A DNA stretch of 64,000 bases. Source: Streptosporangium brasiliense. Its GTDB lineage: Bacteria > Actinomycetota > Actinomycetes > Streptosporangiales > Streptosporangiaceae. Below the pieces are notes generated by a model. The model saw only the letters and a list, made by a program, of their open reading frames with translations, did not search any database and was not told where the DNA came from. Positions 1,072 to 10,466 of the stretch are shown piece after piece (positions within the stretch are counted from its first letter, which is position 1; every line of letters starts with the position of its first letter). Where the stretch lies: contig NZ_JAUSRB010000002.1 of assembly GCF_030811595.1 (NCBI RefSeq), positions 992,001-1,056,000 of the forward strand, written 5' to 3'. Made by a program: the position numbers and the translations under genes.

Positions 1072-1137
1072 GTGGCGTATTTATGCGTCGAATAGCTTGA
1101 GTGTCTTCTGGATTCGCTCATACGCTGACGGCATGCA

Positions 1138-1156
1138 TGTATAGTCCCCTAGACAT
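1138..1156 (+). promoter_or_regulatory. Probable promoter -10 with copy of the CCCCTAGACA box
   Basis: TATAGT at 1140-1145 fits an actinomycete -10 hexamer. The box CCCCTAGACA follows directly (1146-1155) and ends 13 bases before the ATG of the ATPase gene. A protein bound here would cover the transcription start. The same box recurs before the HTH gene and, three times, before the Pra-like gene. Confidence 0.5.
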
Positions 1157-1168
1157 CGGAGTTTCCCC

Positions 1169-1576
1169 ATGTCGCCGTCACGCATCTCCCGCACCTTCCT
1201 CGGCTCTCCTGCCTCGATCACCGAAGCCCGCCGGTTCATCACCGCGTTTCTCCGCAACTGGCCATGCGTGGACGACGCTGAGCTCATCGTCAGCGAGCTG
1301 GCCACGAACGCGGTTCGGCACTCCGACAGTGGCCGATTCGGGGGCCGCTTCACTGTCTCCATCGAGACCAGGAACAGCTGGCTGTGGCTCAGCGTCCTGG
1401 ACGAGGGCGGTCCCCGCTCTCCTCGGGCACTTCCGCCTCTCACGAGCGCCGAAAACGGGCGTGGGCTGATGCTGGTCGGTGAACTCTCGGCGGCCTGGGG
1501 TGTCACCGGAGACGACAAGGGGCGCATTGTCTGGGCTGTCCTGAAGACGCTCCCTGAAGCAGCGACACGGCGATGA
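1169..1576 (+). CDS. RsbW-like GHKL ATPase (anti-sigma kinase-like)
   Basis: A 135-residue single-domain GHKL ATPase. The N box is SELATNAVRHS (E43, N47), the G1 box is LDEG (D78), and the G2 box is ENGRGLML (about 95-102). Length and motifs match the stand-alone RsbW/SpoIIAB-like proteins abundant in actinomycetes. Those bind sigma factors or phosphorylate STAS antagonists; the substrate here is unknown and no STAS protein is encoded nearby. It overlaps the next gene by ATGA, so the two are translationally coupled. A sigma-like HTH protein and a PP2C-like protein follow within 1.3 kb, which suggests a partner-switching module carried by the element. The start is the ATG just after the CCCCTAGACA box; no strong ribosome-binding site precedes it. 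Confidence 0.85.
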   Translation: MSPSRISRTFLGSPASITEARRFITAFLRNWPCVDDAELIVSELATNAVRHSDSGRFGGRFTVSIETRNSWLWLSVLDEGGPRSPRALPPLTSAENGRGLMLVGELSAAWGVTGDDKGRIVWAVLKTLPEAATRR

Positions 1577-1842
1577 GCTGCATCGCTCCACACGTTGCGC
1601 CGCTCCAGGCGACCCATGAACGGCTGGCCTGGCTGGAACTGCGCAACGACGACCGCTATCGACTGATCGCGTGGACCTGCGACTGCCGGGCGGTCGTCTA
1701 CGAGCTGCGCAGCTCTGGCGGAGCGTTCTTCGTCCACCGAATCGTCCAGGGCAGGCCCCGCACCATCACCGAGACCGGCCGGACCCGCGCGGCCGAAGCT
1801 CACAAACTATGGCTGACCATCCTGCTGGGCCAGGCCCGATGA
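1573..1842 (+). CDS. Small hypothetical protein coupled to the ATPase
   Basis: An 89-residue soluble protein of unrecognised family. Its ATG overlaps the ATPase stop (ATGA), so the two are probably co-translated and may be partners. A Cys-rich patch (TCDCRAVVYELRSSGGAFFVHRIV, about residues 35-58, cited only for its position and its pair of cysteines) precedes a charged C-terminal helix. It has no signal peptide or membrane segment. A role as adaptor or inhibitor of the ATPase is only inference from position. Other open frames across this stretch lack overlap logic and conserved composition. Confidence 0.6.
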   Translation: MSCIAPHVAPLQATHERLAWLELRNDDRYRLIAWTCDCRAVVYELRSSGGAFFVHRIVQGRPRTITETGRTRAAEAHKLWLTILLGQAR

Positions 1843-1909
1843 CGAGGGGTGTACCGCGACGGCGCTCGGCGATCCGTGCAGTTCACCCGAAAACCGGCGA
1901 ACCGCTCAA

Positions 1910-1959
1910 ACCCCTACCGTCAAGGGGGATAGACGACATTTCGTCTAGGGGGCTAGACT
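1910..1959 (+). promoter_or_regulatory. Inverted-repeat operator built from the CTAGAC box
   Basis: GTCTAG at 1943-1948 and CTAGAC at 1953-1958 form a perfect inverted repeat around GGGG. TAGACT (1954-1959) fits a -10 hexamer 23 bases before the start codon. A degenerate copy, GGGGGATAGAC (about 1924-1934), lies just upstream, and CCCCTA at 1911-1916 pairs with GGGGG behind it. The layout suggests a repressed or activated promoter for the HTH/PP2C-like gene pair. Confidence 0.55.
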
Positions 1960-1982
1960 CGGCGAAGTACCACCGAGGGGAA

Positions 1983-2831
1983 ATGACCGTGCCACCGAGT
2001 GACCTTGAGCGGATCGCCGCCATCGAAGACCCGTACCAGTTGATCCGGGTCACAACCGAACGGCTCAGCGCCGCCCAGCAGGAGGTCACCGAGCTGGCCC
2101 GGATGCGCCGCCGCGTCATTCAGGAGCTGCACGCACAAGGCGTCTCCTATGCCCAGATCGCCGAACAGGCCGGCCTCTCGCGTGGTCGCATCCACCAGAT
2201 CAAGCACACCGGACCCGCCCCAGAAGGTGCATTCCTCGGCATAGGCGCAGTGACGGTGGTGACCCCGCTACGGCTCGACCCGGAGCGCAACCGCCCCATG
2301 CTGGCCCTGGACGACATGCGCTCCGGCAAGCGCTTGGAAGATCTCGCACGCTCCTTCGGGCTCACCGTCGCCTCCGACAACGTCTCGGTCGACGGGCAGG
2401 TCGACCTCAACCGGCCCGGCCTGCTCGTCATCTGCGGCCCCCGGATGTCCGCGGCGATGCGTACCGCCTACGACACCGATCCAGTGATCACCTGGGAACG
2501 CGACGACCTCGGCTGGCTGCTCCGCGACACCCGGACCGGCGTCGCCTACCGCTCCGGTAGCCAGGTCGACCCCCCACAGCCGACCGACTCGGCCTACCTC
2601 GGCCGCCTGCCCCGTCCGGACGGCAACGGTACGTTCCTGGCGATCGCGGGCATCCATCCGAACGGCTCGCTCGGCGTGGTCGACCTGCTCGCCTCCGAGG
2701 TCGCCACCATCTGGGGGCAGGTCGGCGACAAACGCTTCTCCACCGTTGTCGGCGTTGAATACGACCCTGCCACCGGGGAACCGGTCCGTACGCAACTGGC
2801 CAGCCCGCTCTATCGGCACGAGGACGACTGA
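1983..2831 (+). CDS. Sigma-70 region-4-like HTH protein with an uncharacterised C-terminal domain
   Basis: A 282-residue protein. Residues about 40-75 are a sigma-region-4-like helix-turn-helix (RRRVIQELHAQGVSYAQIAE, then AGLSRGRIHQIK). A region-2 domain is absent, so it is not a complete sigma factor. Residues about 100-240 form an unrecognised globular domain: LLVICGPRMS (147-156), a W-E-R-D-D-L-G-W segment, then AYLGRLPRPDGNGTFLAIAGIH. The GPR loop and the closing G-T-F-L-A-x-A-G-I-H strand look like a ligand-binding or sensor fold, but I cannot name it. The ATG was chosen because a GAGGGGA ribosome-binding site lies just before it and the 100 codons upstream in frame look like read-through of other genes. 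The PP2C-like gene begins one base after its stop. Confidence 0.72.
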   Translation: MTVPPSDLERIAAIEDPYQLIRVTTERLSAAQQEVTELARMRRRVIQELHAQGVSYAQIAEQAGLSRGRIHQIKHTGPAPEGAFLGIGAVTVVTPLRLDPERNRPMLALDDMRSGKRLEDLARSFGLTVASDNVSVDGQVDLNRPGLLVICGPRMSAAMRTAYDTDPVITWERDDLGWLLRDTRTGVAYRSGSQVDPPQPTDSAYLGRLPRPDGNGTFLAIAGIHPNGSLGVVDLLASEVATIWGQVGDKRFSTVVGVEYDPATGEPVRTQLASPLYRHEDD

Positions 2832-2832
2832 C

Positions 2833-3651
2833 GTGCGACTCAGCCTCGCCACCGAACCCGCCTCTTCTGACCGGGCGAACGAGGACTTCATCGGTGCCAC
2901 CCCTGACGCGGTCGTCCTCCTGGACGGCGCCGGCACCCCCGCGGATCTGGAATCGGGCTGCTCCCACGGTGTCGCCTGGTACTCCCACACCCTCGGCTCG
3001 ACTCTCCTGGCCGGAATGACCCAGCGCGCCGACTCCCTGACCGAGATCCTCGCCGCCGGCATCAAGGCGACAGCCTCGATGCACGACTTCTGCTGCGACC
3101 TCTCCCACCCCGGCTCGCCTTCGGCCACCGTGGTCATGCTCCGCCGTACGGCCGGCACCCTGGACTGGCTCGTGCTGGCCGACTCCGTGCTCGTCCTCGA
3201 TGTCCTCGACGCCGACCCCATGGTCATCTGTGACGAGCGGCAAGCCCTGACCGGTAGCCGCTACCGAGCTTCGATGGACGCCGCTGTTGGGGGGACTCCA
3301 GAACACCTCCAGGCCCTCAGCCGCTATATGGACGCCATGCGCGCGCACCGCAACGTCAACGGGGGATTCTGGGTCGCCGCGGTTGATCCTCTCGCCGCCG
3401 AACAGGCATTGACCGGAACGGTGCCGATCGATCGGGTACGGGCTGCCGCGATCCTGAGTGACGGAGCATCCCGGCTCATCGACCGCTTCCACCTGGCTAC
3501 CTGGCCGCAGGCACTCGACATCCTCGACCAGGACGGCCCCGAGGAACTGATCCGCCGGGTCCGCGAGGTCGAACACGGCGATCCGGACGGCTCCCGCTGG
3601 CCACGCGGGAAGATCTTCGATGACGCCACAGCCGCCTACTGCCGCATCTGA
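2833..3651 (+). CDS. PP2C-like Ser/Thr phosphatase-family protein
   Basis: A 272-residue cytoplasmic protein with the PP2C metal-site skeleton: D13-x-x-N-E-D18, D31-G-A-G34, SATVVML (97-103), SDG (209-211) and a closing F-D-D-A-T (262-266). The first motif replaces the usual G-x-x-R-x-x-N-E-D, and the overall sequence is divergent, so activity is likely but unproved. The GTG start sits one base after the preceding stop, meaning tight coupling with the HTH protein. Together with the RsbW-like ATPase it supplies the kinase and phosphatase arms of a partner-switching circuit. A membrane protein gene converges on it from the other strand, 3 bases away. Confidence 0.78.
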   Translation: MRLSLATEPASSDRANEDFIGATPDAVVLLDGAGTPADLESGCSHGVAWYSHTLGSTLLAGMTQRADSLTEILAAGIKATASMHDFCCDLSHPGSPSATVVMLRRTAGTLDWLVLADSVLVLDVLDADPMVICDERQALTGSRYRASMDAAVGGTPEHLQALSRYMDAMRAHRNVNGGFWVAAVDPLAAEQALTGTVPIDRVRAAAILSDGASRLIDRFHLATWPQALDILDQDGPEELIRRVREVEHGDPDGSRWPRGKIFDDATAAYCRI

Positions 3652-3654
3652 CCT

Positions 3655-4242
3655 CTACTCCACCCACCACCAGCCGTCCCCGAGGGCGCGGACCGGAATG
3701 CCCAGATCGCCGGCAGCGGTCTGGATGATCATCCTAGAATCCGGCGGACCTGGTAGATAGGCGATCCCGGCACCGGTTTCTGCACGCCAATCCTCGAACA
3801 CGGGAAGGTAGAGGACGTCTCCCTGATCCCAGGCCTGGCCGTCCTTCGACAGATACTTCATCCACCAAGGGACAACGAGCGGCTCATGATTGTCGTGAGC
3901 GGCGGCAAGTGCGGCGAATTCGTCTCGATGCAGCCAGAACTGACTGTCCACGTAGACGGTTTTCCAGTCGGTCGCCCAGACGGCGGCACCAAGGGTCACT
4001 GCGCTCACCAGTATGACGAAGGCTCGGATGTAGGCCTTGAGTGAAAGGTGCGACATCACCGCGGCGAAGGACCATAGAACGGCCCACAGCCAGGACACCG
4101 AGAGGGCAAGCCCTGCCAACAGCCAGCTCACCCTGAACAACGGTATCCACAGGTAGGAAGTGGCTGTCAGCAGGAGCCATCCGAGCGACGCCATGAAGAG
4201 CGTCCACCTGGACCACTGGGCGGTTTTCATCACGGGAAGCAT
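3655..4242 (-). CDS. Hypothetical membrane protein
   Basis: A 195-residue protein of unknown family. Three hydrophobic segments cover about residues 13-33, 37-62 and 70-90. A soluble, Trp-rich C-terminal part (about 95-195) with WWMKYL and GDGWWWVE follows, probably on the outer face. It is read against its neighbours and converges on the PP2C-like gene with a 3-base gap. An internal ATG four codons on is a possible start. Single-gene membrane proteins next to AICE transfer genes sometimes act in entry exclusion or in mycelial spreading (Spd proteins); that is only a suggestion here. Confidence 0.6.
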   Translation of the reverse strand: MLPVMKTAQWSRWTLFMASLGWLLLTATSYLWIPLFRVSWLLAGLALSVSWLWAVLWSFAAVMSHLSLKAYIRAFVILVSAVTLGAAVWATDWKTVYVDSQFWLHRDEFAALAAAHDNHEPLVVPWWMKYLSKDGQAWDQGDVLYLPVFEDWRAETGAGIAYLPGPPDSRMIIQTAAGDLGIPVRALGDGWWWVE

Positions 4243-4377
4243 GGGGCGCAGCCTCGTGGAGGAAGGAAGCCGTCACCAGGCTTTCAGGGAAACTTTCACA
4301 CCTTTTGCACGCTTTCTTCACCATGTCCGGCGACCTTCACGGATCGGCGGCCATGAAAATTCCCGTCGCGCGTTTAC

Positions 4378-4470
4378 CCCCCTAGACAGTTGGGGGAGAC
4401 CTCCTCTATCTTCATCTGCATAGCCCCCTAGACAGCTCGCCTTGCGGAACGGCCGCAAATGTCTAGGGGG
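4378..4470 (+). promoter_or_regulatory. Triple CCCCCTAGACA box with nested hairpin before the Pra-like gene
   Basis: CCCCCTAGACA occurs at 4378-4388 and 4424-4434, and its exact reverse complement TGTCTAGGGGG at 4460-4470. The second and third copies form a perfect 11-bp inverted repeat. Inside its 25-base loop lies a second inverted repeat, TTGCGG (4442-4447) with CCGCAA (4453-4458). The ribosome-binding site GAAAGGA (about 4477-4483) and the ATG at 4492 follow, so an RNA hairpin would end 7 bases before it. It could be a DNA operator, an mRNA switch, or both, acting on the likely master activator of the element. Confidence 0.7.
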
Positions 4471-4491
4471 GTGGACGAAAGGAACATCACC

Positions 4492-4926
4492 ATGGCCATC
4501 CAGGGCCCCATCCCCGTCAGCTTCGACCAGGTCTTCCCGCACGGCTGCTACATCGTCGGCGAGGTCGAGCAGGTCAAGGACTTCGACGCCTCCGCCAAGG
4601 GGCGCACCGTCTACGCCAAGGACAAGACCACCGGAGAGCCGGTGTGGCAGGTCGCCGTCATGGACGCCGACCCCACCGTCAAGGCCGGCCAGAAGACCGT
4701 GTCGGTCAAGATCCTCTCGGCGGTGCAGCCGGTTCCCCCGGCGCCGCTTCCCGGCCTGCCGTTCGTCCCGGTCGAGTTCGACGCCATGACCGTCACGCCG
4801 TACGTCGGCCAGACCACCGGCCGCCTGGCCTGGTCCATCCGGGCCCGCGCGATGCGCGCTCCCCGCACCGCCACGGCTCCGGCCAAGCAGACCACCGCAG
4901 CGGCCGGCAAGGAGGCGGCGGCATGA
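4492..4926 (+). CDS. pra: Pra-like activator of element replication, integration and excision
   Basis: A 144-residue protein resembling the AICE proteins annotated as plasmid replication, integration and excision activator. Typical segments are the N-terminal V-x-F-x-x-V-F-P-H-G-C-Y-x-V-G, then D-F-D-x-S-x-K, then the conserved middle PVWQVAVMDADP and the end FVPVEFDAMTVTPYV. In pSAM2, Pra turns on the rep-xis-int operon; the same role is inferred here from family and position. The Ala/Thr-rich tail is poorly conserved. The ATG was chosen because GAAAGGA precedes it by 8 bases; an in-frame ATG 33 bases upstream lies inside the hairpin and is less likely. It overlaps the next gene by ATGA. Expression is probably governed by the triple box upstream. 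Confidence 0.8.
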   Translation: MAIQGPIPVSFDQVFPHGCYIVGEVEQVKDFDASAKGRTVYAKDKTTGEPVWQVAVMDADPTVKAGQKTVSVKILSAVQPVPPAPLPGLPFVPVEFDAMTVTPYVGQTTGRLAWSIRARAMRAPRTATAPAKQTTAAAGKEAAA

Positions 4927-5332: not shown

Positions 5333-6745
5333 ATGTTCAGAAAACTGCCCGGCGACGAGGCGCACCACCTCGTCTCCACCACCCCCGACACCGCCGTGGT
5401 CTTCCGCCCGGCCGTGGTCACAACCCCGGCGATCGTCACCATCGTCATCTTCGCCTGGCGGCTGCTGGCCGGCGCCGTACGCCTGCTCTGGCGGCACCCG
5501 ATCGCCGCGGCCATCGTCGCCGCTCCGTGCGTGCTGGCCTGGCTGTACGGCTGGCGCGTCGCCCTGATCGTGGCCACCCTCCCCGTCTCGGCTCTCGTCC
5601 CCTGGGCGCTGTTCGACCGGCCCTCGTTCAACGCCTGGATCGGCTGGCGGCTGCTGGCCTGGTGGCGGCTGGTGTGGGTCTACCGGCGGCACTGGCAACC
5701 GGTAATGATCATTTCCGGATTGGGGCGGCACGTGCGCGGCCGCGACTACCTGCCCCGCCTGGTCAAGGTCTCCTGCACCTCGTGGGCCGACCTGGTCACC
5801 GTGCAGATGCTCACCGGCCAGGCCGTCACCGACTGGTCCGACCGCATCGACCACCTGGCGCATGGGTTCGGGGCGCGCTCGTGCCGCGTCTCGGTCGCTC
5901 GGGCTGGCCGGCTGCTGCTCATCTTCCCCCGACACGACCCCCTCGCCACCCCGCTCGCGGCCGTACCGATCCCCGAGGAGGCATCGGTGGGGCCGGTGGA
6001 GATCGGCACCTGCGAGGACGGCACCCCCTGGCGGCTGAAGGTCCACGGCACCCACATCCTGGTCGCGGGCGCCACCGGGGCGGGCAAGGGCTCGATCATC
6101 TGGTCGACGATCCGCGGCCTGTTGCCCGCCGTGCGCGCGGGCCTGGTGCAGGTGTGGGCGCTGGATCCCAAACGGATGGAGCTGTCCTTCGGCCGACCCC
6201 TGTTCGGCGACCGGTACGCGGCGAGCCCGGCCGACTGCGCCGATCTGCTGGAGGCGGCCGTGGCGGTGATGCAGGAGCGGGCCGACCGGTTCGCCGGGCT
6301 CCAGCGCAACCACACTCCGACCGTCGAGGACCCGTTTGTCCTGGTGGTGGTCGACGAGGTGGCATTCCTGACCGCCTACCAGTCCGACAAGGGCCTCAAG
6401 CTGCGTATCTCGGCCGCGCTCGCGACCCTCACCACGCAAGGGCGGGCGGTCGGCGTCGGCGTCTTGGCCGCACTCCAGGACCCGCGCAAGGAGGTCATGA
6501 ACATCCGCAACCTGTTCCCCGACAAGATCGCGCTCCGGCTCGACGAGTCCGAGCAGGTGGACATGGTCCTCGGTGATGGGGCCCGCGACCGGGGCGCGCT
6601 GGCCGATCACATCTCGCCGATCCCCACCCAGGGGGCCGGCGTCGGCTACGTGCGGCTGGAGTGCTCGCCCGATCCGGTCCGGGTCCGCGCGGCCTATGTC
6701 TCCGATGCCGACATCCGTGCGATGGCCGGGCAGGTGACGGCATGA
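5333..6745 (+). CDS. TraB/FtsK-SpoIIIE-like DNA translocase
   Basis: The conjugative pump of the element, about 470 residues. Hydrophobic segments in the first 110 residues anchor it in the membrane. A motor domain follows, with Walker A GATGAGKGS (about 244-252) and Walker B VLVVVDEVAFL (about 335-345), then an arginine-rich FtsK-like core (LTTQGRAVGVGVLAALQDPR). In Streptomyces elements one such hexameric protein moves double-stranded DNA between hyphae after binding clt repeats. A GTG 87 bases upstream overlaps the previous stop and would add 29 Gly/Pro/Ser-rich residues; I prefer the ATG with AAGGAAG before it, but either is possible. Its stop overlaps the next ATG. Confidence 0.88.
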   Translation: MFRKLPGDEAHHLVSTTPDTAVVFRPAVVTTPAIVTIVIFAWRLLAGAVRLLWRHPIAAAIVAAPCVLAWLYGWRVALIVATLPVSALVPWALFDRPSFNAWIGWRLLAWWRLVWVYRRHWQPVMIISGLGRHVRGRDYLPRLVKVSCTSWADLVTVQMLTGQAVTDWSDRIDHLAHGFGARSCRVSVARAGRLLLIFPRHDPLATPLAAVPIPEEASVGPVEIGTCEDGTPWRLKVHGTHILVAGATGAGKGSIIWSTIRGLLPAVRAGLVQVWALDPKRMELSFGRPLFGDRYAASPADCADLLEAAVAVMQERADRFAGLQRNHTPTVEDPFVLVVVDEVAFLTAYQSDKGLKLRISAALATLTTQGRAVGVGVLAALQDPRKEVMNIRNLFPDKIALRLDESEQVDMVLGDGARDRGALADHISPIPTQGAGVGYVRLECSPDPVRVRAAYVSDADIRAMAGQVTA

Positions 6746-6942
6746 GGGTCTGCTTCTACGGCACCGACGAGGAGATCACCCGAGTGTGCGAGCGGCCCTT
6801 CCTGGCCGTCCTGGGGCTCCGTCACCCTCAGCCCGTCCTGGCCTTCGAGCTGTTCGACATCAAGGTCAACACCGACCCCTACGGCACCGTCGTCCGCCTG
6901 TCCGCCGAGCTGTCCGAAATGGAGGGGAGCGAGCGTGACTGA
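6742..6942 (+). CDS. Small hypothetical protein between traB and rep
   Basis: A 66-residue protein whose ATG overlaps the translocase stop and whose end overlaps the Rep start by 8 bases, so it is embedded in the transfer-replication operon. It is acidic, with a mixed alpha/beta look (FLAVLGLRHPQPVLAFELFD). I do not recognise the family. Tight coupling on both sides is the main support that it is translated. Confidence 0.62.
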   Translation: MRVCFYGTDEEITRVCERPFLAVLGLRHPQPVLAFELFDIKVNTDPYGTVVRLSAELSEMEGSERD

Positions 6943-8596
6943 CCCGACCGGCCGCGGCCTCTCCCGCGCCGAACGGCAGGCCATGCCGGTGGCGCTGGAC
7001 GTCGCGGTGGAGATCGCCAAGCACAACGGCGTGTGCATCCGCCCGGTGGTCCTGCGCAGGTTGGACATCCATACCGGCACCACCGAGGACGTCAACGTCC
7101 CATGCGGAACCACGCTGGAGGCCAAGTGCCCGCCGTGCGCCAAGCGCAACCGCTACCTGCGCATGGCCCAGTGCCGGGAAGGCTGGCACCTGGACGCCGA
7201 ACCCTCCACCACCCCGGATGAGCCGAATGAGGAACAGCGCTGGCTGGTGGAGTTCCGCGCCGACATGCAGGCCCAGCGCGATGCCGCCGACAAGGCCGGC
7301 GACGACACCACCGATCTCGACGCGGTGCTCGCCGGGCTGGATGAGGAGATCAACGCCGCCGGGATGCGGGGCACCCTGCTCGGCCGTACCACCGCCAAGC
7401 GCACCCGCTCGACGAGGCGGCGCCAGGACGCCCCCGACCTGCCCAGGAGGGTCCGGCGGAACACCACGCTCGGGCGGACCTTCACCGGCTCGGACGGGGC
7501 CACCTACCGGCCGTCGCTGTTCATCACCTTGACTCTGCCCTCCTACGGCCGTGTCCGCGCCGGGCAAGGCGTGCCGGTCGATCCGGACGCCTACGACTAC
7601 CCGCGGGCTGCTCGGGACGCGCTGCACTTCTCCAAGCTCGTCGACCGCTTCGTGCAGAACCTCCGCCGGGTGGCGGGCTATGACGTGCAGTACTTCTCCT
7701 CCGTCGAACCTCAAAAACGGTTCGCGCCGCACCTGCACATGGCCGTACGGGGCACCATGCCACGCGCCGAGATCAAAGCGATTGCCGCCGCGACCTATCA
7801 CCAGGTGTGGTGGCCATCGGTCGATGAAGTGCGCTTCGAGGGCGAGCACCTGCCCGTCTGGACCGAGCGGCCTGAACGCGCGGAACCGTACCCGGACGGC
7901 CAAGACGGCGACTACCTCGACCCGGTCACCGGCGAACTCCTGCCCACCTGGCATGAGGCGCTCGACCGGCTCGACGCCGACGACGAGGCCGAACCACTGC
8001 ACGTGGTCCGCTTCGGCCCCCAAGTCGACGTGCAAGGTGTCCTCGCCGGGACCCCGGACGCCGATCAGTGCATCCGCTACCTGAGCAAGTACCTGACCAA
8101 GAGCCTCGGTGACACCCTCGACGCCGACGACCCCGCGCGCCGGGATCACGCGGCCCGGATGATCGAGGCGCTGCGCTACGAACCGTGCTCTGCGGCCTGC
8201 CCGAACTGGCTGCGCTACGGCGTGCAGCCCAAGAACGCCAGGGCGGGCATGAGTCCGGGCCGGTGCCGGGGCAAGGCACACAAGCCCGAACACCTCGGCT
8301 ACGCGGGCCGCCGCGTCTTGGTCTCCCGCAAGTGGTCCAACAAGACCCTGGCCGAGCACAAGCGCGACCGCCGTACCTGGGCCCTGGAAGCGCTCGGCCT
8401 GGCCGACGAACCCACCGACCCGCACCGCTACGTCTGGAAGCCCGTCCCGGCCGGCGACGACAACATCCCCTCCCTGGCCCTGCGGCTGCTGCGCATGGTC
8501 GCCGAACGCCAGCGCTGGCGGGCAACCCTGCTGGCCCTGGAGGCCAGAGCCACCGGACAAGACCTTTCGGCAGTCGAGTTACAGGAGGCAGCGTGA
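6935..8596 (+). CDS. repSA: RepSA-type rolling-circle replication initiator
   Basis: A 553-residue initiator of element replication. A Cys-rich finger near residues 55-85 (P-C-G-T, then C-P-P-C) precedes the HUH nickase core: motif I LFITLTLPS (about 195), the metal-binding APHLHMAVRG with H-x-H (about 263-268), and the catalytic-tyrosine motif RYLSKYLTK (about 381-389). The C-terminal part holds further Cys pairs (CSAACP, then GRCRGKAH). The length fits RepSA of pSAM2-like elements. It nicks a double-strand origin, usually inside or near its own gene; I did not locate that origin. GTG start; coupled to the genes on both sides. Confidence 0.88.
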   Translation: MTDPTGRGLSRAERQAMPVALDVAVEIAKHNGVCIRPVVLRRLDIHTGTTEDVNVPCGTTLEAKCPPCAKRNRYLRMAQCREGWHLDAEPSTTPDEPNEEQRWLVEFRADMQAQRDAADKAGDDTTDLDAVLAGLDEEINAAGMRGTLLGRTTAKRTRSTRRRQDAPDLPRRVRRNTTLGRTFTGSDGATYRPSLFITLTLPSYGRVRAGQGVPVDPDAYDYPRAARDALHFSKLVDRFVQNLRRVAGYDVQYFSSVEPQKRFAPHLHMAVRGTMPRAEIKAIAAATYHQVWWPSVDEVRFEGEHLPVWTERPERAEPYPDGQDGDYLDPVTGELLPTWHEALDRLDADDEAEPLHVVRFGPQVDVQGVLAGTPDADQCIRYLSKYLTKSLGDTLDADDPARRDHAARMIEALRYEPCSAACPNWLRYGVQPKNARAGMSPGRCRGKAHKPEHLGYAGRRVLVSRKWSNKTLAEHKRDRRTWALEALGLADEPTDPHRYVWKPVPAGDDNIPSLALRLLRMVAERQRWRATLLALEARATGQDLSAVELQEAA

Positions 8597-8787
8597 GCAA
8601 GAGCCGCGACCAGCTCATGACCGTTCCGGAGATCCTCGACGAACTCGGCGGGGTGTCACGACGAACCTTCTACCGCTGGCGGGAGATCGGTCATGCTCCC
8701 CAAGGTCTCAAGCTCCCGAACGGTGAGATCCGCATCTGGCGCAGCGAGTTCACCGCCTGGCTTGAGACTCTCCGGGAGGCGGCGTGA
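8593..8787 (+). CDS. xis: Excisionase (MerR/AlpA-like small HTH)
   Basis: A 64-residue DNA-binding protein: a helix-turn-helix (LMTVPEILDELGGVSRRTFY), a wing (NGEIRIWRSEFTAWL) and a short tail. This is the standard actinomycete Xis layout. It bends the attachment sites so that the integrase excises the element. The GTG start overlaps the Rep stop and the gene overlaps the integrase start by 4 bases, so Rep, Xis and Int are made from one message, as in pSAM2. Confidence 0.88.
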   Translation: MSKSRDQLMTVPEILDELGGVSRRTFYRWREIGHAPQGLKLPNGEIRIWRSEFTAWLETLREAA

Positions 8788-10148
8788 ACACCTCCTACGA
8801 CGTGAAGTTCTGGGAGATCCGTCGGAACGAGACGAGCAAGACGCCGTCCTACGTGATCCGCTGGAAGGTCGGCGGTCGCCAGAAGTCGAAGACCCTGCGG
8901 ACCAAGGCTCTCGCCGAGAACTTCCTGTCGGACCTGCGGCAGGCGGCCAAGCGGGGTGAAGCCTTCGACATGGAGACCGGCCTCCCGCTCTCCATGCTCC
9001 AGGCCAAGAGCGCCCGGACGATCTTCGAGTTCGTACGGGCCTACATCAACATGAAGTGGCCTCACGCAGCGGCCAAGAGCCGGGACAGCATGTCCGACGC
9101 GCTCTCAACGGTGCTCCCCGCGCTGGCCAAGGATCGGCCTGGCCGTCCTGACGCCGAGAGTCTGCGGGCTGCGCTCCGTAAGCATGCGCTCCTCCCCGCC
9201 GGTAAGAGGCCCGATGCTCCTCATGAGATGGCGCAGGCGATTCGGTGGCTTGAAAGCGCCTCACTGGACTTGGCTGACCTGAGAGAGACCAAGGTCGTAC
9301 GACTGGCGCTCGACGCGCTCGCCCTCCGACTCGACGGCAAGGCCGCGGCCCCGAACACGATCGCCCGTAAGCGGGCGGTTCTCCATGCCGTGCTGGAGTA
9401 CGCGGTGGAGCTGGAAGAGCTGGACGCCAACCCGTTGCACAAGGTCAGATGGAAACCTCCCAAGACCACTGAGACCGTCGACCCGCGCGTGGCGGTCAAT
9501 CCGCGGCAGGCTCGGGAACTCCTGACCATGGTCACCTACGTGGGTGGGCGTGGCCGGGGCCGGCGGCTCATGGCGCTGTTCGCCTGCATGTACTACGCGG
9601 CGCTGCGCCCGGGTGAGGCGGTCGGCCTGCGTCTCCAGGACTGCCACCTGCCCGCGAAAGGCTGGGGGCGGTTAACAGTCGACGTCTCCCGGCCCGAGGT
9701 CAACAGGCAGTGGACGGACAGCGGGGACGCCCACGAGGAACGGGGTCTCAAGCACCGTGGCAGTGCCGACGTCCGTCCGGTGCCGATCCCTCCCGAACTC
9801 GTGAAGATCCTCCGGCAGCACATCGACGAGTACGGCACCGGCGCGGACGGGCGCATCTTCCGCAGCGAGCGGGGCGGTGTGATCGCCTCGACGGCCTACA
9901 CCGAGGTCTGGCAGGACGCGCGGACACTCGCCCTCACTCCAGCTCAGGTCGCCTCGCCCCTCGCCCGGCGGCCGTACGACCTGAGGCACGCGGCGGTCTC
10001 GCTGTGGCTCAACGCGGGCGTCTCAGCTCCCGACGTGGCCGAGCGGGCGGGCCATGGCGTGGACGTCCTGCTGAGGGTCTACGCCAAGTGCCTCGACGGA
10101 CAGAAAGAGATCGCCAACAAGCGGATCAGTGACGCGCTGACCGCATGA
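8784..10148 (+). CDS. int: Tyrosine site-specific integrase
   Basis: A 454-residue tyrosine recombinase. An N-terminal arm-binding part, a core-binding SAM-like domain (about 75-225) and a catalytic domain follow in order. Catalytic residues visible are R275 in ALRPGE, R401 and H402 in YDLRHAAVS (the usual first His of the HxxR box is Tyr, as in many actinomycete integrases), H421 in RAGHG and the nucleophile Y433 in RVYAK. It directs insertion into the tRNA-Tyr gene 233 bp downstream. GTG start overlapping the excisionase stop. A strong hairpin follows the gene. Confidence 0.95.
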   Translation: MNTSYDVKFWEIRRNETSKTPSYVIRWKVGGRQKSKTLRTKALAENFLSDLRQAAKRGEAFDMETGLPLSMLQAKSARTIFEFVRAYINMKWPHAAAKSRDSMSDALSTVLPALAKDRPGRPDAESLRAALRKHALLPAGKRPDAPHEMAQAIRWLESASLDLADLRETKVVRLALDALALRLDGKAAAPNTIARKRAVLHAVLEYAVELEELDANPLHKVRWKPPKTTETVDPRVAVNPRQARELLTMVTYVGGRGRGRRLMALFACMYYAALRPGEAVGLRLQDCHLPAKGWGRLTVDVSRPEVNRQWTDSGDAHEERGLKHRGSADVRPVPIPPELVKILRQHIDEYGTGADGRIFRSERGGVIASTAYTEVWQDARTLALTPAQVASPLARRPYDLRHAAVSLWLNAGVSAPDVAERAGHGVDVLLRVYAKCLDGQKEIANKRISDALTA

Positions 10149-10381: not shown

Positions 10382-10430
10382 TGGTGGCAGGTGCAGGACT
10401 TGAACCTGCGTAGGCTGAGCCGACGGTTTT
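10382..10430. other. Likely attachment site (attR) in the tRNA-Tyr 3' half
   Basis: AICE integrases of this type recombine within the 3' part of a tRNA gene, and the element restores that part. The segment from the CCA end through the T arm to near the anticodon stem is the expected identity region. The exact core cannot be set without the left copy, which lies outside the window. Confidence 0.55.
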
Positions 10431-10466
10431 ACAGACCGCTCCCTTTGACCACTCGGGCAACCTGCC
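10382..10466 (-). tRNA. tRNA-Tyr (anticodon GTA), CCA encoded
   Basis: The acceptor stem is GGCAGGT with ACCTGCC and discriminator A, followed by an encoded CCA (10384-10382). The anticodon loop is CTGTAAA, giving anticodon GTA. The T loop is GTTCAAGTC. A long variable arm (class II) fits bacterial tRNA-Tyr. The gene is read towards the integrase and its 3' half is the likely attachment site of the element. Confidence 0.95.

Follow-up and report, generated by a model that had tools for sequence, protein, structure and literature searches.

The element and its control region

We analysed 64,000 nucleotides of Streptosporangium brasiliense DNA (contig NZ_JAUSRB010000002.1, positions 992,001 to 1,056,000; this whole stretch is referred to as the window), which hold all but the left 4.2 kb of a 14.7-kb mobile element inserted in a tRNA-Tyr gene. 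This study concerns a short sequence, the box, that recurs in front of genes of this element, and a helix-turn-helix (HTH) protein encoded among them that is probably the repressor reading it. Gene content and attachment (att) sites indicate that the element is an actinomycete integrative and conjugative element (AICE). It encodes an FtsK/TraB-type transfer protein (5333-6745, plus strand; Pfam FtsK_SpoIIIE; NCBIfam TraB at E 1.9e-11, below its cut-off), a RepSA replication initiator (6935-8596, plus strand; Pfam RepSA, 1.3e-101) and a tyrosine integrase (8784-10148, plus strand; Phage_integrase, 27.8 bits, cut-off 27.1). A 35-bp att repeat (10400-10434) lies inside the tRNA-Tyr gene (10382-10466, minus strand), and its twin begins 4.2 kb to the left of the window start, 14.6 kb to the left of the tRNA-Tyr copy.

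The genes of interest are all on the plus strand: a Scr1-type regulator (232-1071; XRE HTH and DUF5753; Pfam HTH_31 and DUF5753), an RsbW-like HATPase_c_2 protein (1169-1576; Pfam HATPase_c_2; hereafter the ATPase), the HTH protein of 282 residues, our proposed repressor (1983-2831; recognised by Sigma70_r4 and alignments), a PP2C-like phosphatase (2833-3651; PP2C_2 at 17.2 bits, below the cut-off of 24) and a gene for a Pra-like activator (4492-4926; pra). Comparison with relatives suggests that the HTH protein may start at the GTG at 1989. Since the GTG of the phosphatase lies one base past the HTH stop codon, both genes probably belong to one operon. The Pra-like protein matched no Pfam or NCBIfam family and was recognised by its similarity (44% identity over 76% of the length) to a plasmid protein annotated as 'plasmid replication, integration and excision activator'.

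A box that is part of a palindrome

The window contains exactly four copies of the box, CCCCTAGACA, at 1146(+), 4379(+), 4425(+) and 4460(-), where 0.04 copies are expected; none of 100 shuffles reached four. These copies precede the ATPase gene and pra, and the 9-mer CCCCTAGAC adds one at 1943(-), upstream of the HTH gene. The box is real, and a preliminary description of this DNA had given its coordinates correctly. When one mismatch was allowed, the window total was at chance (13 found, 16 expected), so that the signal resides in the exact box and in a palindrome which the preliminary description had missed: the box comprises one arm and the centre of a 16-bp imperfect palindrome, GTCTAG-N4-CTAGAC (consensus GTCTAGGGCCCTAGAC), to which all boxed places of the element conform. 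Six sites of this kind lie in the element: the ATPase gene has one, the HTH gene two and pra three. The second site of the HTH gene (1919-1934), 24 bp from the first, had likewise escaped notice; upstream of this gene lie two 17-nt repeats, 24 bp apart, one of which contains GTCTAGGGGGCTAGAC.

As the preliminary description had expected, copies of the box are not spread at random over the chromosome. The 10.5-Mb genome contains 14 exact copies of the 9-mer, five of them inside one 3.3-kb stretch of the element; some of the other nine (e.g. L012) stand, by eye, upstream of possible genes, so the 9-mer alone is not exclusive. Allowing up to two mismatches, the palindrome was found at 40 genomic places, six of them in the element, i.e. 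the only perfect site, the only one-mismatch site and four of the 38 two-mismatch sites. Read backwards, the 9-mer occurs 119 times (against 14) and the palindrome, again with up to two mismatches, at 266 places (against 40). CTAG-containing words are thus rare here, which explains part of the rarity of the box but not its clustering. We did not find the box described in the literature, most subscription papers being beyond reach; at least one of five box strings is present in 328 papers, and among the 20 of these that were listed no title concerned actinomycete elements.

Conservation in related loci

Of 150 genomes sampled from the host's family, 50 encode relatives of the HTH protein (E <= 1e-10). 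With a profile of the HTH family (E <= 1e-15), matches were obtained in 132 of 345 genomes at the level of the order (in some of them through the HTH part alone), in 32 of 394 for the class and in 7 of 396 for the phylum. A search of a phage collection yielded no relative. Surroundings were taken from the family genomes and, among 188 loci in named genomes, from the 80 best (Streptosporangium, Microbispora, Nonomuraea, Actinomadura, Nocardiopsis, Streptomyces and others); the resulting 120 loci, minus L083 and duplicates, gave 95 distinct loci (1.14 Mb). The gene order Scr1 - ATPase - HTH - PP2C is kept in most of them, often followed by pra, tra and rep, and most carry palindromes at equivalent places. 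Sites matching at least 10/12 numbered 403, against 17, 22 and 31 in three simulations. A palindrome lies upstream of the HTH gene in 93/95 loci and upstream of the ATPase gene in 89 of the 92 with enough upstream DNA. At a looser threshold, 68 loci have three sites further downstream, and 5 have two, spaced as at pra, the remaining 22 having none on this criterion or being too short. The box, called private in the preliminary description, is so within this genome but not generally, as it is common to related elements in many genera.

Where sites were missed, L065 (ATPase gene) and L175 (HTH gene) show weaker forms, and the upstream DNA of L079 looks replaced; L121 gave no ATPase match. Among 28 loci from Streptomyces or close to it, several of them truncated, 16 have an additional site 5.0-6.3 kb past the HTH start. 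It lies just before rep in the loci inspected (e.g. L173, L176), where it could allow direct repression of replication. In Streptomyces, the gene in the position of pra shows only weak similarity to Pra (E 0.036).

Sites and predicted promoters

The sites occupy defined positions relative to predicted promoters. At the HTH gene, TAGACG (1930-1935) at the distal site (GTCAAGGGGGATAGAC, 10/12; 1919-1934, plus strand) reads as a -35 element, and TAGACT (1954-1959), 18 bp further on at the proximal site (GTCTAGGGGGCTAGAC, 12/12; 1943-1958, plus strand), as a -10 element. Tandem sites, where two occur among the relatives, are 24 bp apart in 28/28 cases, which is the -35 to -10 distance for an 18-bp spacer. 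The proximal arm with its next base is TAGACT in 85/93 relatives and TAnnCT in 92/93.

At pra, TAGACA (4383-4388) of the first site, pra-1 (GTTTACCCCCCTAGAC, 10/12; 4372-4387, plus strand), fits a -35 element and is followed after 18 bp by the -10 element TATCTT (4407-4412, plus strand). This combination was the sole promoter-like match of our scan, where shuffles give 0.5. Site pra-2 (GCATAGCCCCCTAGAC, 10/12; 4418-4433, plus strand) lies at the expected transcription start and pra-3 (GTCCACCCCCCTAGAC, 10/12; 4461-4476, minus strand) in the expected leader. Among 72 loci chosen for two sites 41-49 bp apart, 70 have TAGACA followed by TAnnnT with a spacer of 17 (29 loci) or 18 (41 loci), and TAnnnT is hardly found at other spacings. 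On this geometry, the pra-1 box probably doubles as operator and -35 element.

The ATPase site (GTATAGTCCCCTAGAC, 11/12; 1139-1154, plus strand), found at the same place in the 89 relatives mentioned above, starts 18 bp after the start of the -10-like TACGCT (1121-1126, plus strand). With TTGAGT (1097-1102) as -35 and an 18-bp spacer, the latter may form a promoter, read from the sequence by us and not picked up by the promoter scan. Among relatives, 89/90 loci have TAnnnT at 15-30 bp before this site, but just 48/89 a -35 element with at least 4/6 bases. The preliminary description had the copies overlap likely -10 elements; this holds for the proximal arm at the HTH gene but not for pra, where the first site takes the -35 position and the others lie at or after the start, nor for the ATPase gene, where the site lies past TACGCT.

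pra promoters with and without the HTH gene

In pSAM2, pra is repressed by KorSA (PMC8584621, PMC3218068). KorSA and its relative SCO3932 are element-encoded GntR-UTRA proteins with sites in their own and the pra promoters (PMC8584621). A search for pra matched 122 of 200 family genomes, and 30 pra loci were compared as sequence. All six in which pra lies within 8 kb of an HTH gene carry three sites. The box is absent from the other 24: 23 are devoid of sites, and the remaining locus shows one 10/12 match in which CTAGAC is missing. HTH neighbourhood was judged from the listed positions of relatives, and draft genomes could hide a neighbour on another contig. The prediction of the preliminary description that the box precedes pra in related elements was thus borne out, in this sample only where an HTH gene is near.

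Eight of the 24 had their upstream open reading frames (ORFs) scanned, L301 being too short for this, and seven of these eight have a GntR-UTRA gene of KorSA type 115-648 bp upstream of pra. The same genome holds three further pra copies (L304, L305, L306), none with a box and two with a GntR-UTRA gene upstream. Around the left part of the element itself no GntR gene was seen, with 5 of 19 ORFs of at least 80 residues scanned and none of these having a Pfam family. The promoters without a box (L275-L303 lacking the HTH gene) show, by eye, other repeated words (ACTTGT, ACTCGACA and similar), which are possibly GntR operators. In pMR2, which encodes a Pra relative with 44% identity, no box was seen by eye in the 182 bp upstream of that gene.

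Properties of the HTH protein

The HTH protein passes the Pfam cut-off for Sigma70_r4 (26.1 bits, cut-off 24.1). Pfam matches sigma region 4 alone and no region 2, and NCBIfam sigma70-ECF reaches 21.7 bits on the same HTH stretch against a cut-off of 42.9. A Pfam scan found neither a GntR nor a UTRA domain, so the protein is not of KorSA type. An AlphaFold model (predicted local distance difference test score, pLDDT, 86.9) has a long helix, the HTH and an alpha/beta C-terminal domain. Sequence searches against solved structures returned mostly HTH or designed helical proteins for the N-terminal part, and few matches, at E 0.37 or worse, for the C-terminal part. Solved KORA-domain chains match the HTH family profile weakly (E about 0.1). 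The recognition helix is of the same GLxRG...Q pattern as that of KorA; as in the KorA/TrfB family, an inverted repeat appears to lie at the protein's own -10 element, here with TAGACT in the 85 relatives noted above.

Relatives are also found on plasmids (mostly of Streptomyces, including L271), those listed, 20 out of 24 records, being 34-42% identical. Among the matches listed, 15 of 20 are annotated as 'sigma-70 family RNA polymerase sigma factor'; our analysis suggests that these genes encode repressors.

Recognition helices and operators of paralogues

Immediately upstream of the genes for distant paralogues of the HTH protein (34-38% identical for the seven aligned) lie imperfect palindromes whose centre is mostly G/C-rich. 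By eye, the arms are GTTTAG in L183 and L264, GTAAG in L181 and L246, GCTAAG in L240 and L241, of GCAA type in L180 and L247, and CTTTAG in L253-L255, which have another C-terminal part. Arm GTTTAG goes with helices SKGRITQ and TKGRVTQ, and GTAAG with SRARLSQ. The proteins of L253, L254 and L255, about 270 residues long, match mainly over the first 80-90 residues and combine helix SPGRISQ or TPGRVSQ with TTTAG-type palindromes.

Helix similarity correlated with operator similarity over 34 loci (r 0.355, 0/5000 permutations), a set from which L252, L267, L268 and eight close relatives had been dropped and in which shared descent is ignored. The partial correlation with C-terminal identity held constant was 0.305 (0/5000 permutations), and pairs less than 60% identical gave r 0.286 (3/5000). 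A blind half-site finder, run without L265 (a stop inside the match) and L269, recovered the arm in many loci, though not in every one: in 6/9 close relatives its four best words did not include GTCTAG, and L261 and L262 gave nothing useful. Being incomplete, the finder serves as support only.

A predicted repressor and competing explanations

Several features read from sequence (the sites and how they are conserved, the association of the sites with the HTH gene, the covariation of helix and operator and the promoter geometry) together make it likely that the HTH gene encodes a KorA-like, autoregulated repressor which takes the place of KorSA as master switch and reads the box as the strong half of its operator. 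In the mechanism that we propose, a dimer of the HTH protein would bind palindromes like GTCTAGGGCCCTAGAC at three promoters. In front of its own operon with the phosphatase it would cover both -35 and -10, at the ATPase operon it would sit just past the transcription start, and at pra one site would be the -35 element itself, two more covering the start site and leader. The bound repressor would keep pra off, and with it replication, excision and transfer. A signal, perhaps passing through the ATPase and the phosphatase, would lower repressor activity and open the three operons together. The HTH repressor would thus fill the place held by the GntR-type KorSA in pSAM2-like elements.

The preliminary description had proposed one dedicated regulator for all copies, which our data support, and had named the Scr1-type regulator as well as the HTH protein for binding tests. 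Scr1 adjoins the ATPase gene and was matched in most loci; in L067, L118 and L120 (two from Actinomadura and one unclassified), the Scr1 match is preceded by an 11/12 site at 152-201 bp, and in the Streptomyces loci L156, L157 and L161 by a 10/12 site at 25 bp. The Scr1-type gene of this element, however, has no box in front of it within the window, and L142 keeps its boxes although no Scr1 match was found there, the gene upstream of its ATPase gene having no Pfam family. Seven paralogue loci scanned over about 2-6 kb on each side have operators of their own type and no Scr1 match beside the HTH gene. Because the best palindrome lies in the HTH gene's own promoter, the operators of paralogues are related to their helices, no Scr1 match stands beside the seven paralogues scanned and L142 has boxes without a Scr1 match, we favour the HTH protein as reader of the box and consider Scr1 very unlikely in this role. 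It is still more doubtful that the box is a mere core-promoter element for a special sigma factor and no operator. TAGACA and TAGACT do occupy -35 and -10 positions, and the HTH resembles sigma region 4, but the symmetry of the palindrome exceeds promoter hexamers, sites at pra and the ATPase gene lie downstream of the expected start, the HTH protein matched no second sigma region, and the 24 pra promoters compared that are away from an HTH gene lack the box. The least probable account has the HTH protein bind the box yet activate pra. Three consecutive sites could recruit polymerase, and some mobile-element regulators both activate and repress; the pra sites, however, overlap the -35 element, the start site and the leader, and take a place that, in other elements, belongs to a gene for a GntR-UTRA protein like KorSA, a repressor of pra.

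Several observations weigh against the HTH protein as a KorA-like repressor. Its Pfam KORA score (19.6 bits) is below the cut-off of 26.7, and a Foldseek search of its model against the PDB returned nothing at E <= 0.001, the best match being BcsB at E 0.018. The left arms of the pra and ATPase sites are degenerate, and asymmetric binding or a partner protein is possible there. The correlation of helix with operator is moderate and weakens below 45% identity (r 0.234, 30/5000 permutations), and as the loci are related, neither counts nor permutations deal with independent events. In L260-L262 the arms are of CTAGAC type and the G/C centre is missing; no clear palindrome was seen in L252, L267 and L268. 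Upstream of pra, the scanned ORF of L303 matched no family, and in L306 neither regulator was present among the scanned ORFs. Binding, repression, the dimer and the signal, finally, are what we infer from the sequence features.

Relation to KorSA, KorA and ArdK

The HTH protein resembles KorSA in its place in the circuit, the pra genes of elements that have the HTH gene and of those that lack it being homologous. It differs in belonging to an unrelated family without GntR or UTRA, in its palindrome, as opposed to the SCO3932 motif AC[TC]T[AG]TT[GC][TG][GT]ACG (PMC8584621), and in its additional targets, the ATPase and PP2C operons.

KorA of RK2/RP4 (TrfB family) recognises GTTTAGCTAAAC and, like the related ArdK, binds at promoter hexamers (PMC2680271, PMC4889941, PMC9723621). 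The KorA half-site GTTTAG is nearly the same as GTCTAG here, and both systems share the inverted repeat at the -10 element and autoregulation, the latter predicted from sequence in our case. KorA differs in its length of 101 residues, its own dimerisation domain and the absence of a spacer between the arms of the RP4 operator. ArdK (R388/pKM101) represses promoters of conjugative plasmids; the motif it uses for recognition is reported to be the same as that of sigma 70 for the -35 box, and its operator partly overlaps this box (PMC9723621). It differs from the HTH protein in binding TTGACA direct repeats, in its length of 102 residues and in belonging to Gram-negative plasmids.

A wider reading, to which we give even chances, is that the HTH protein represents a broad new family of actinomycete repressors often annotated as sigma factors. 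In this family, an HTH like sigma region 4 would read a palindrome whose arm doubles as -35 or -10 element, arms tracking the helix would insulate co-resident elements from each other, and a signalling loop, formed by a kinase-like ATPase and a PP2C phosphatase that share this operator, would set off conjugation. A phosphatase and an ATPase linked to the HTH switch could carry the signal that triggers these common conjugative elements. In the literature covered here, the pra switch is the GntR-type KorSA (PMC8584621, PMC3218068); the HTH protein would be a second, exchangeable switch with a defined operator. Its paralogues offer a natural series of helix-operator pairs.

Further genes of the control region

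By loose pattern matching, the phosphatase relatives keep the motifs N[EQ]D in 90/95, [LM][ST]DG in 90/95, DG[AV]G in 77/95 and D[DN][AS]T in 78/95, which makes reversible phosphorylation a fair guess and not a result. An ORF of 89 residues without Pfam family (1573-1842, plus strand) overlaps the end of the ATPase gene and is probably part of the same operon. Between the phosphatase gene and pra, a Trp-rich ORF of 195 residues (3655-4242, minus strand), also without Pfam family, encodes a protein that, by eye, is probably membrane-bound; it was matched in few relatives, and its slot seems variable.

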